Shown here in pieces: positions 9,402 to 50,223 of a stretch of 64,000 nt of DNA (positions are counted from its first letter, which is position 1; every line of letters starts with the position of its first letter). Below the pieces are notes generated by a model. The model was not told the origin of the DNA and searched no databases. It saw nothing but the letters and a program-made list of their open reading frames with translations. Origin of the DNA: Lachnospiraceae bacterium (GTDB taxonomy: Bacteria > Bacillota > Clostridia > Lachnospirales > Lachnospiraceae); the NCBI GenBank assembly GCA_015057005.1, contig SVFF01000009.1, positions 1 to 64,000 on the forward strand, written 5' to 3'. Position numbers and translations under genes: made by a program.

Positions 9402-9523
9402 AATCATATGCAAAGCGTTGCTCAATGAGCATGTTGGAAATAGGAAAGCATGAGTATGGCGTTGTCTGAGGAGTGCGCCGAAAATGATTTTGAGATGATT
9501 TGAAAACAGAGAGGAAGATGCCT

Positions 9524-10756
9524 ATGAATCAGAAATTAAGAGCAAATGCTGACGCAATCGTGGCTGCTTCCATCCGTGCGGTACAGCCGGATGAGGCGGT
9601 AAAGAGAGCGTTGGACGGATATGAGTTCCCGGGCAAGATTGTGCTGGTGGCTGCCGGTAAGGCAGCCTGGCAGATGGCCAAGGCAGCCAGAGATTGCCTG
9701 GGCGATAGAATTGACAGCGGCGTGGTAGTGACCAAGTACGAGCACGTAATGGGTCCCATCGCCAATTTCTCCTGCAGGGAAGCGGGACATCCCGTGCCGG
9801 ATGAGAATTCCTTCTCCGGCACCCAGGAGGCCCTGGATCTGGTGGCGGACTTACAGCCGGATGATACGGTGCTGTTCCTGTTGTCCGGCGGCGGCAGTGC
9901 CCTGTTCGAGAAATCTCTGGTACCCGGTGAGGTGCTGCAGGATATTACCGGACAGCTGCTGGCCTGCGGTGCGGACATCGTGGAGATCAACACTATCCGC
10001 AAACGCCTGTCTGCGGTAAAGGGTGGCCGTTTCGCTCAGCTGTGTGCACCGGCCCATGTATTCGCCATCGTACTCAGTGATATTTTGGGCGATCCTTTAG
10101 ATATGATCGCTTCCGGTCCCGCCTGTCCCGACAGTACCACTTCTGCACAGGCCATCGCCATTGCAGAGAAGTATAATCTGAAGCTCACTGAGGAGGCCAG
10201 AGCCCTGTTGGCAATTGAGACCCCCAAGGAACTTGACAATGTGACCACCCAGATCACCGGCAGTGTCCGTCAGCTTTGTACCGCTGCAGATGCAGTCTGC
10301 AGGAAGCTGGGCTATGAGACTGTGATCCTCACCGACCAGCTTTGCTGCCAGGCCAAGGAGGCAGGAAGCTTCCTGGCTTCCATCTTAAAGACCTACGCAG
10401 GCAGCGGCAAGAAGATCGCTTTCATCGCAGGCGGCGAAACCGTAGTGCAGCTTACCGGTAAAGGTAAGGGCGGCCGCAACCAGGAGTTGGCCTTGGCAGC
10501 AGCAGAAGGCATCCGCGGCCTTGCCGGCGCAGCAGTGTTCAGTATCGGCAGTGACGGTACCGATGGCCCTACGGATGCAGCCGGCGGCTACGTGGACTAC
10601 GAGACCGCAGACGCCTTGAAAGCACAAGGCGTGGAGATCTACAAAGTCCTACAGAACAACGATGCATACCATGCTCTGCAGAAAGTTGATGGATTGATTA
10701 TCACCGGACCTACAGGAACCAATGTAAATGACGTGGCTGTAGCGCTGCTTGGATAA
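9524..10756 (+). CDS. Glycerate kinase type-2 family (MOFRL / TtuD-like)
   Basis: FLLSGGGSALFEKS...INTIRKRLSAVKGGRFA...GGETVVQLTGKGKGGRNQELAL...SIGSDGTDGPTDAAGG. Confidence 0.9.
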   Translation: MNQKLRANADAIVAASIRAVQPDEAVKRALDGYEFPGKIVLVAAGKAAWQMAKAARDCLGDRIDSGVVVTKYEHVMGPIANFSCREAGHPVPDENSFSGTQEALDLVADLQPDDTVLFLLSGGGSALFEKSLVPGEVLQDITGQLLACGADIVEINTIRKRLSAVKGGRFAQLCAPAHVFAIVLSDILGDPLDMIASGPACPDSTTSAQAIAIAEKYNLKLTEEARALLAIETPKELDNVTTQITGSVRQLCTAADAVCRKLGYETVILTDQLCCQAKEAGSFLASILKTYAGSGKKIAFIAGGETVVQLTGKGKGGRNQELALAAAEGIRGLAGAAVFSIGSDGTDGPTDAAGGYVDYETADALKAQGVEIYKVLQNNDAYHALQKVDGLIITGPTGTNVNDVAVALLG

Positions 10757-10779: not shown

Positions 10780-10902
10780 GATGCTCCGGCCAGAATGTAT
10801 ATATGTTCCAATGAGAGACCCTTAAAAAGCGTCGGTGCTAAGCTTTTTACGGAGCGAGAGCGTGTCCGAATGGAACATATATGCAGGCTGTGCCGGAGCA
10901 TC
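10780..10902. repeat. Long intergenic hairpin element 1
   Basis: Outer arms GATGCTCCGGC...ATATATGTTCCA / TGGAACATATAT...GCCGGAGCATC around core CCCTTAAAAAGCGTCGGTGCTAAGCTTTTTACGGAGCGAGAGCGTG. Confidence 0.8.
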
Positions 10903-10923
10903 CCTATTTATATGAAATTTTCC

Positions 10924-10953
10924 TTGACAAACAGCCACGCGATATACTATAGT
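10924..10953 (+). promoter_or_regulatory. Putative sigma-A promoter for T-box-valS
   Basis: TTGACA (10924) - 18 nt - TATAGT (10948). Confidence 0.6.
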
Positions 10954-10982
10954 CAACTATGTAGAAATACATGAAAATTAAC

Positions 10983-11322
10983 CTTATAAAGGCTGTGACG
11001 AAGAGGAGTACGCATTACCCCTTAAAAGAGAGAGTGGCTGCATGATTGGAAATTGTGCGCTGAAAGGCTGCTTGAAGGAAGGTGTGCAGAAGGTAGCTTT
11101 CGAGCCGGAGGCCCAGAGTTGAGCTGTCCAAGATCAACTGTAAGCCCTCACGAGTTATCCCCGTTACCGGATAGGACTTTAAAATCTGTTTTGAAAGGCG
11201 ACACCGGCAGGCGAAGGCATACATGCAGATGAGAAGCTCCATGAGGCAGCGTATGCTGCGAACAAAGGTGGTACCGCGTTAATAACGCCCTTTGCTGACG
11301 GAAGTTGGCAGAGGGCTTTTTT
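10983..11322 (+). promoter_or_regulatory. T-box leader upstream of valS
   Basis: AGAGAGTGG distal motif, candidate GTA (Val) specifier near 11093, T-box AAAGGTGGTACCGCG at 11264-11278, terminator GCCCTTTGC..GCAGAGGGCTTTTTT 11287-11322. Confidence 0.9.
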
Positions 11323-11388
11323 ATGTAATATTACCTGTAAAACATAATATTTTATTTTCTATTCCTTTGGGTATTTCGGGAAAGTGCA

Positions 11389-11537
11389 GGGGAGTGTATC
11401 CTATGTCCTGCAAGGTCCCTTGAAAAACGCCGGCACTTAGCGAGGTAAGGCGAAAAGTATTTTCGCCTCGAGCTTAGTACCGTTGCGTTTTTCACGGAGC
11501 GGAAGCGTGACCGCGCAGGATATAGGATACAATCCCC
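11389..11537. repeat. Long intergenic hairpin element 2, between T-box and valS
   Basis: GGGGAGTGTATCCTATGTCCTGC...GAAAAACGC... paired with ...GCGTTTTTC...GCAGGATATAGGATACAATCCCC. Confidence 0.85.
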
Positions 11538-11585: not shown

Positions 11586-14267
11586 ATGAGCAAAGAACTG
11601 GCAAAAACTTATGACCCCAAGGGTCTGGAAGACAGACTCTATCAGAAATGGCTTGACAACAAGTATTTCCATGCGGAGGTAGATTACTCCAAGAAACCCT
11701 TCACCATCGTAATTCCCCCTCCAAATATCACCGGACAGCTGCATATGGGACATGCGCTGGACAATACCATGCAGGATATCCTGATCCGTTTCAAGAGAAT
11801 GCAGGGCTACAATGCTCTGTGGCAGCCCGGTACTGACCACGCAAGTATCGCTACCGAGGTTAAGATCATTGAGAAGTTAAAGAGCGAAGGCATCGACAAG
11901 CGTGACCTGGGACGCGAAGGCTTCCTGGAGAGAGCTTGGGACTGGAAGAGAGAGTACGGCGGACGTATTATTTCTCAGCTGAAGAAGCTGGGTTCTTCCT
12001 GTGACTGGGACAGAGAGCGTTTCACCATGGATGAGGGCTGCAACAAGGCTGTAACCGAAGTATTCGTAAAGATGTACGAGAAAGGTTATATCTACAAAGG
12101 CGCCCGTATGATCAACTGGTGTCCTATTTGTAATACTTCCATCTCCGATGCTGAGGTAGAGTATCAGGAGCAGGCCGGACATTTCTGGCATATCAAATAT
12201 CCTCTCATCGATGAGAACGGTGCTCCCAGCACCACTGAGTTCCTGACCTTTGCCACCACCCGTCCTGAGACTATGTTGGGCGATACTGCTGTGGCAATTC
12301 ATCCCGAGGATGACAGATACAAACATCTGATCGGCAGAAAGGTAATGCTGCCCCTGATGAACCGTGAGATTCCCATCGTTACCGACACTTACGTAGACAG
12401 AGAGTTCGGTACCGGTGTTGTTAAGATCACACCCGCTCACGACCCTAACGACTTTGAAGTTGGAAAGCGTCATGACCTGCCCATCATCAACGTAATGAAC
12501 GATGATGCTACCATCAACGAGAACGGCGGCAAGTTCGCTGGCATGGACCGCTATGATGCCCGCAAGGCTATCGTGCAAGAACTGGATGCTATGGGTCTGC
12601 TGGTTAAGATTGAAGACCACGTTCACAATGTAGGTACCCACGACCGTTGTAAGACTACCATTGAGCCCCTGGTAAAAGAGCAGTGGTTCGTAAAGATGGA
12701 CGAACTGATCAAGCCCGCTGTAAAGGCTGTTCAGGACGGCGAGATCCAGCTGATCCCCGAGCGTATGGAGAAGACCTACTACAACTGGACCGACAATATC
12801 CGCGACTGGTGTATCAGCCGTCAGCTGTGGTGGGGCCACAGAATCCCCGCTTACTACTGCGACAAGTGCGGCAAGTTTATCGTTTCCAAGGAAGCTCCTA
12901 CTGCTCCCTGCCCTCACTGCGGTCACGATCATTATACTCAGGATCCCGATACCCTGGATACCTGGTTCTCCTCTGCCCTGTGGCCTTTTGAGACCCTGGG
13001 ATGGCCTGAGATGACCGAGGATCTGAAGTACTTCTATCCTACAGACGTGCTGGTAACCGGTTACGATATCATCTTCTTCTGGGTTATCAGAATGATCTTC
13101 TCCGGCTTCGAGCAGATGGGTGAGAAGCCCTTCAAGACTGTATTATTCCACGGTCTGGTAAGAGACAGCCAGGGCCGCAAGATGTCCAAGTCCCTGGGCA
13201 ACGGTATCGATCCTCTGGAGATCATCGACCAGTACGGCGCGGACGCACTGAGACTGACCCTGATCACCGGCAACGCACCCGGCAACGACATGCGTTTCTA
13301 CTTCGAGAGAGTAGAAAACAGCCGTAACTTTGCAAATAAGGTTTGGAATGCTTCCCGTTTCATTATGATGAACATGGATCAGGCACTTGAGAAGACCGGC
13401 AGCGCGCTGACCACTCCTGCAGCTGCAGATTTCGAGCCTGTGGATAAGTGGATCCTTTCCAAACTGAACACCCTGGTTAAGGATGTTACCGAGAACATGG
13501 AGAACTTCGAGCTTGGTATCGCTGTTCAGAAGGTTTACGATTTCATCTGGGATGAGTTCTGTGACTGGTACATTGAGATGGTTAAGCCCCGTCTGTACAA
13601 CTCCGATAACACTGCAAGCCAGAATGCGGCTCTGTGGACTTTACAGACTGTACTGATCGACGCGTTAAAGCTCCTGCATCCTTACATGCCTTTCATCACT
13701 GAGGAAATCTTCTGCACCCTGCAGAGCGAGGAAGAGTCCATCATGATCAGTAAGTGGCCTGAGTACACCGAGGACAGAAGCTTCGCTAAAGAAGAGAAGG
13801 ACATTGAGACCATCAAGGAAGCTGTTCGCGGCATCCGCAACATCCGCAGCGAGATGAACGTAGCACCCAGCCGCAAGGCCAGCGTTTACGTTGTCAGCGA
13901 GGATGAGGGCATCCTGAATACCTTCGCCGAAGGTAAGCTCTTCTTTGCTTCTCTGGCTTATGCTAACGAAGTGACCATGCAGACCAATAAGGACGGCATC
14001 GCTTCCGATGCAGTATCCGTAGTGATCCCCGGCGCTACCCTCTACATTCCTTTTGCAGAGCTGGTAGATATCGCTCAGGAGATCGAGCGTCTGAAGAAAG
14101 AGCAGAAGCGTCTGGAAGGCGAGCTTGCCCGTGTAAACGGCATGCTGTCCAACGAGCGCTTTATCTCCAAGGCTCCCGAGGCCAAGATCGCCGAGGAGAA
14201 GGAGAAGAAGGCTAAGTACGAGCAGATGATGGCTCAGGTAACTGAGAGACTGGCTCAGCTGCAGTAA
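11586..14267 (+). CDS. valS: Valyl-tRNA synthetase
   Basis: 893 aa; [25 protein letters not shown] and [14 protein letters not shown] (KMSKS) class I synthetase signatures. Confidence 0.97.
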
Positions 14268-50088: not shown

Positions 50089-50223
50089 TGGTGATTGCGG
50101 AAATATATGTATGATGCGGAACCAGGGGGAATGCCCTCAAAGAGCGACTAGCCACTGCTTCGGAGTTCTTTGGGGGTATTCCCCCTCGGTTCCCTCATAA
50201 CCTTAGCTTTTCGCAATTACCAT
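50089..50223. repeat. Long intergenic hairpin element 3
   Basis: CTGGTGATTGCGG...GATGCGGAACCAGGGGGAATGCCCTCAAAG paired with CTTTGGGGGTATTCCCCCTCGGTTCCCTCAT...TCGCAATTACCAT. Confidence 0.8.

Follow-up and report, generated by a model that had tools for sequence, protein, structure and literature searches.

Hairpins flanking a valS T-box leader belong to an apparently undescribed, probably mobile hairpin repeat family of Lachnospiraceae

Hairpins arise and are kept up through template switching, which can also invert their loops; GNRA loops, which are stable in DNA, are enriched at template-switching events (PMC8794818). When the switch takes place between inverted repeats, the arms are homogenised and the spacers inverted (PMC8604942). 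Among mobile elements, those of the IS66 family are reported to be flanked by 8-bp duplications (PMC3281130) and may end in GTAACCGTCCGGGCA (PMC12888890).

Here we analyse a window of 64,000 nucleotides from a Lachnospiraceae bacterium (contig SVFF01000009.1), in which two long hairpins flank the valS T-box leader. Comparison with related genomes leads us to propose, with a probability of roughly two in three, that they belong to a MITE-like mobile repeat family in which DNA-level events homogenise and flip the hairpin.

The valS hairpins and their family

Element 1 (10780..10902, + strand) lies between the end of an ORF that reads as glycerate kinase (9500-10756; name read from the sequence) and the valS T-box, upstream of a putative promoter recognised by eye (TTGACA-18-TATAGT, 10924-10953). 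Element 2 (11389..11537, + strand) follows the T-box terminator in the valS leader and precedes the start codon of valS, and would therefore belong to the valS transcript. The T-box leader (10986..11295, + strand; RF00230, scoring 74.9 bits, short of the gathering threshold of 93) and the valS ORF (11586..14267, + strand; 893 aa, ValRS identity read from the sequence) are context outside the family; as a DNA query, valS finds a match in 132 of 138 same-genus genomes. Applied to this region at gathering and permissive thresholds, Rfam returned the T-box alone and no family for either element.

Both hairpins fold far better than expected by chance, at -63.3 kcal/mol (z -9.3) for element 1 and -82.9 kcal/mol (z -9.2) for element 2, with none of 200 shuffles doing as well in either case. 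Their outer arms are unlike each other and each is self-complementary, with 28 and 21 Watson-Crick pairs, respectively, in a neutral arm alignment, which bears out the original prediction of two long hairpins with a common core and unrelated arms. The 5' arm of element 2, GGGGAGTGTATCCTATGTCCTGC (11389..11411, + strand), pairs with its 3' arm (11515..11537, + strand) through 21 Watson-Crick pairs, 1 G.U and 1 other, forming an inverted repeat. The core common to the two elements reads CCCTTRAAAA..CGYCGG ... TTTTTYACGGAGCGNRAGCGTG. It is complete in element 2 (11417..11508, + strand), where CCCTTGAAAAACGCCGG and ACCGTTGCGTTTTTCACGG are paired and are accompanied by an apical hairpin and a GNRA mini-hairpin. 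The core of element 1 (10819..10870, + strand) is shortened: its apical part is missing, GGTGCTAAGC joins TTTTTACGG directly, and the GNRA mini-hairpin AGC-GAGA-GCGT is recognised by sequence reading and by a pattern match at 10819-10835.

A 17-base core word, with two mismatches or fewer, occurs at 24 places in the genome, and all of these but one (L019) are surrounded by a long hairpin. We aligned 21 copies from this genome (alignment A1) and built on them a covariance model, R1, which matches element 1 at 10799-10882 (76.5 bits, E 3.6e-19) and element 2, itself one of the 21 copies that built the model, at 11399-11527 (136.4 bits). R1 finds about 31 copies in this genome. Under a stricter filter and with at most 55 candidates scored per genome, copies appear in 26 of 37 same-genus genomes with a patchy distribution of 0 to about 50 each, the large counts being lower bounds; a search of 24 genomes from other families of the order gave none. 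An exact search for the apical motif yielded at least 119 stretches, and among the matches listed nearly all are labelled Lachnospiraceae or its genera; a second alignment, A2, was taken from this search, so that its apical columns are fixed by ascertainment. The genome-wide covariance search had been expected to reveal many intergenic hits with a conserved core and variable but paired arms, and the copies found are indeed numerous, mostly intergenic and of this kind. Plasmids, phages and viral contigs gave no family match, Rfam recognised no family for the repeat at related loci, and a non-exhaustive search of the literature found no published description. The window hairpins thus belong to a large, high-copy and apparently undescribed Lachnospiraceae repeat family.

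The shared fold comprises one long stem, variable in its outer part, together with a short stem, a core helix and an apical helix, and the GNRA mini-hairpin is placed on the 3' side. The apical helix contains a U.U mismatch as well as a CGAG/CGAG motif; the apical hairpin is optional and variable. In many Lachnospiraceae the apical hairpin, CTTRRYGAGGT..CGARYYTAG, also stands by itself, usually in tandem pairs (L061, L087, L094, L096, L107, L121, L135, L138, L140 and others); over all occurrences its RRY/RYY changes are fully compensated in 171 of 175, and it is often near TATAAT-like sequence and matches no Rfam family. Copies of the family often form divergent (-)(+) pairs 100-400 bp apart with unrelated spacers (G017 and G027, e.g. 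L174-L183). One copy, L002 (G000:C3 near 446,450), lies in sense orientation in an ATP synthase operon, between genes reading as atpA and atpG. In L002, L021 and L195, small palindromes of the type AGGTCAAT..ATTGACCT stand at two places in the core as if inserted.

A hairpin at 50089-50223 had been put forward as a third member. It is strong (about -81 kcal/mol on the + strand and -58 on the - strand), but the family covariance model does not match it, and a search of the genome that tolerated 3 mismatches found its core only once; we reject it. It pairs much better on the + strand, and the genes flanking it appear by eye to lie on the - strand.

The adjacency of the window copies to the T-box appears to be incidental. 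The valS leaders of two relatives (L195 in G091 and L218 in G072) carry a family hairpin at the same leader position with unrelated arms; their flanks have diverged, and orthologous copies and independent insertions both fit. Other relatives have different repeats at that position.

Arm pairing at the DNA or RNA level

By standard measures the family looks like a structured RNA. Across copies, 93% of the cells of 44 pairs are paired, 29 of the 44 pairs have changed on both sides, and the covariation score is 0.404 vs 0.163 after shuffling. The outer columns of A1 have a between-copy identity of 29-33%, close to chance, and the same outer pairs are 89% Watson-Crick within a copy; core identity between copies is 85%. 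In a wider set, arm length ranges from about 20 to more than 70 bp and some arms are perfect or nearly so (54 of 54 positions paired in L091, 72 of 73 in L044).

Selection for pairing in a transcript of the core strand is expected to tolerate G.U and not A.C. We therefore counted both mismatches, with strand defined by core orientation, in an alignment that penalises them equally. The arms contain 2803 Watson-Crick pairs, 68 G.U and 61 A.C, and the core 1679 Watson-Crick, 17 G.U and 21 A.C, or about 12 G.U and 18 A.C without the six apical pairs that the search pattern had fixed. By the same method, 28 valS T-box terminators of the same genomes give 325 Watson-Crick, 34 G.U and 1 A.C. The corresponding figures for tRNAs are 328, 32 and 0, although the pairing rules of ARAGORN themselves favour G.U. 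The G.U:A.C ratio of the family differs from these RNA controls with Fisher p of about 2e-7 and 4e-7. Covariation of the outer arms, which the proposed Infernal search would have taken as support for a maintained structure, consequently loses its value as an RNA-type signal: G.U is no commoner than A.C.

Orientation relative to co-directional neighbours is close to even, with 27 copies sense and 30 antisense (p 0.79; simple ORF calls). When mismatches in co-directional regions are scored on the transcribed strand, G.U outnumbers A.C 66:32 (p 0.0008) whichever way the core points. This excess could reflect C-to-T mutation with a strand bias, or mild selection on hairpins that happen to be transcribed, and leaves room for some mild RNA effect, but RNA selection on the core strand at its usual strength does not describe it. 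Arm complementarity seems to be kept by DNA-level events and not by selection on RNA. The family imitates a structured RNA in standard covariation tests, and DNA-level processes yield an equal signal.

Mobility and remodelling of the element

Some copies have a palindrome that ends in GTAACAGTTCAGCC or GTTACTTTTCAC, which resemble IS66 terminal inverted repeats. Five complete copies with such ends, the only complete ones found, have perfect 8-bp direct repeats outside them, L027 (AACCGTTG), L091 (TGTTCCCG), L137 (GGCTAAAC), L081 (ATAAACAG) and L154, from G012 of the same genus (CCCATTCT); a shifted control gave 0. The sister genome G017 carries an IS66-type element, L352, of 2,202 bp with ends GTTAC[A/T]GTTCAG and an 8-bp duplication, CCGATTTT, which encodes a 543-aa IS66 transposase family protein (PF03050, E 3.5e-19). 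The genome of L137 likewise has an IS66-type locus, L353, with the same variant end GTTACTTTTCAC. In none of eight IS66-type loci examined does the hairpin lie inside an autonomous element. No intact ends of the right kind accompany the IS66 transposase of this genome (G000:C3, L356), and no IS66-type transposase was found in the copy-rich G027, G032, G005 and G012, which are incomplete drafts. Around 10780-10902 and 11389-11537 we found neither IS66-like termini (GTWAC-type) nor direct repeats. The label of IS66 MITE would extend to elements 1 and 2, as members of the hairpin family, through core homology to copies that have ends, and the best explanation of both is that they are old, end-eroded members.

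Other copies have other ends. For five elements (L302, L277, L279, L275 and L303), close relatives (G071, G129 and G011) with conserved flanks have empty or nearly empty sites in which both arms are absent, and the ends of these elements are of the CTCGGGG..CCCCTCGAG type, not GTAAC. In G006, groups of copies that are 96-99% identical over about 450 bp occupy different sites and have the same arms. Since recent copies share arms and empty sites lack both of them, the arms travel with the element and are remodelled later. The hairpin of G006 (L257-L263) sits near one end of a non-coding repeat of ~500 bp, with ends AATGGAAAGTTAGT, recent copies and a possible TA duplication. In G011/G088/G129 it lies within a GGGGACRTGTCTACTGACACA inverted repeat. 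Five loci of the G011/G088/G129 clade (L274, L278, L283, L293 and L297) have an inverted repeat, TGGGTCACGGGGACRTGTCTACTGACACA, around the hairpin, like another mobile repeat. Because copies also lie inside other repeats, the hairpin is possibly not tied to one transposon and may be a module that uses several vehicles.

Close genome pairs were picked by valS identity (G006/G128, 96.7%; G018/G071, 95.6%; G088/G129, 95.4%; G011/G129, 93.2%), and 12 copies with both flanks collinear were compared. In two of the 12 the element is inverted and its flanks have kept their direction. The L253/L272 pair aligns over 134 bp at 95.5% in the opposite direction only, and both flanks are co-linear; in L281/L292, the inversion spans about 290 bp at 80.7% identity, again with collinear flanks, and independent reinsertion at the same site is a possible alternative. 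In a further four (L293/L297, L280/L299, L284/L296 and L298/L301), the apical hairpin has been swapped for an unrelated palindrome and the rest of the element is nearly unchanged. Some of these replacements could be conversion from another copy instead, as the new hairpin of L297 is similar to the one in L276. L256/L268 shows concerted change of arm and apical pairs. Judged from these products, arm homogenisation and inter-arm inversion fit template switching between inverted repeats.

The inversions, apical replacements and concerted arm changes at orthologous loci agree with the original prediction that the pairing goes beyond simple copying of a repeat. They also uphold one half of its suggestion that structure is maintained or generated at the site: maintenance is seen in these changes, and generation on insertion is contradicted by shared arms and empty sites.

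Explanations and comparison with known systems

We propose that each hairpin is a copy of a small mobile, non-coding DNA repeat of Lachnospiraceae intergenic regions, in which complete copies measure about 190-230 bp, and that an IS66-family transposase probably moves the copies in trans. The element would arrive with its arms, and remodelling would follow insertion. Its nested inverted repeat would then serve as a hotspot for template switching between the arms: copying one arm into the other would keep complementarity while the sequence drifts, and a switch spanning the spacer would invert the whole core. Apical hairpins may be exchanged for other palindromes via template switching or conversion from other copies. 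Conservation of the core is left unexplained by template switching; the core may act as a DNA hairpin in mobility. It is also conceivable, though we hold this only tentatively, that the core is a selfish DNA-hairpin module, recognised in its folded single-strand form and able to pass from one kind of transposon end to another, unrelated kind. Template switching would continually rewrite its arms, and inheritance would be limited to the fold and a few core motifs.

A related account, which we consider doubtful, makes the core an independent module that some protein would recognise in its cruciform or folded single-stranded state. The module would hitchhike on transposons of several types, and its arms and apical hairpins could change freely. 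One core does occur in three settings (IS66-like ends, the G006 repeat and the G011/G088/G129 inverted repeat), it is conserved across genera when its flanks are not, and the apical hairpin is also found alone; nested insertion into other repeats would, however, look alike, no recognising protein was found, and Y1 (REP/RAYT-type) transposases are absent from the most copy-rich genomes. We regard as unlikely a structured RNA family, that is, a regulatory leader or small RNA with arms covarying by compensatory substitutions under selection on the transcript. The very strong covariation, the retained GNRA mini-hairpin, the place of element 2 in the valS leader, the G.U excess on the transcribed strand and one conserved G.U position in the own-genome subset all speak for it. 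Yet in core orientation G.U equals A.C, compared with 34:1 and 32:0 in the RNA controls, orientation to genes is random, the core is inverted at orthologous loci, and neither element nor the related loci match Rfam.

The remaining accounts invoke other DNA processes. That a dedicated site-specific invertase, not template switching, causes the inversions and arm matching seems very improbable: two clean inversions do lie between inverted arms, but the arms of different copies have no recombination site in common, and arm homogenisation and hairpin replacement are not invertase products. We give hardly any credence to REP/REPIN elements mobilised by a Y1 (RAYT) transposase. High-copy intergenic palindromes, at times in divergent pairs 100-400 bp apart, do recall BIMEs; against this, PF01797 has no match in G000, G005, G012, G017, G027, G032, G018 or G088 and does have matches in copy-free genomes, and the units measure 120-230 bp with 8-bp duplications at complete copies. 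A driver that is absent where copies are numerous was rejected. Insertion of the core into pre-existing palindromes such as terminators, with arms of host sequence, would explain why arms are locus-specific and why element 1 lies just 3' of a stop codon. It is scarcely tenable given that conserved sequence extends outside the arms as well as inside and that recent copies at different sites have common arms, and it is refuted by the empty sites examined, which have no palindrome and lack both arms.

The mobile, DNA-remodelled repeat that we favour offers hundreds of homologous hairpins as a natural collection for following, between close species, how DNA-level template switching matches and flips arms. 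It cautions that extreme covariation alone is no proof of a functional RNA; the two cases are told apart by how many G.U mismatches occur per A.C. The repeat also adds a mobile repeat family, apparently undescribed, to a major group of gut bacteria.

Of the described systems, IS66-family insertion sequences and their MITE derivatives resemble the family in GTAAC/GTTAC.. ends and exact 8-bp target duplications (complete copies elsewhere), in an intergenic location without coding capacity, and in the matching PF03050 element of a sister genome. The family differs from that IS66-type element in its interior, a conserved multi-part hairpin that the latter lacks, and from IS66-type MITEs in having perfect arms that are specific to each locus, a core that inverts and an apical hairpin that can be replaced; the window copies, moreover, are without ends. 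REP, BIME and REPIN elements with their RAYT are likewise high-copy intergenic palindromes, sometimes in divergent pairs, whereas the present family is larger, has other ends and 8-bp duplications, and lacks a Y1 transposase in copy-rich genomes. The double-hairpin and repetitive hairpin elements of mitochondria are likewise described as mobile repeats defined by a hairpin (PMC2800124, PMC5910586); the type of genome differs. Hairpins shaped by template switching share with the family concerted arm changes and an inverted inter-arm segment (PMC8794818, PMC8604942). The published cases concern rRNA loops only a few bases long and short repeats in yeast genes (PMC8794818, PMC8604942), whereas here 100-290 bp are inverted within a dispersed, high-copy family.
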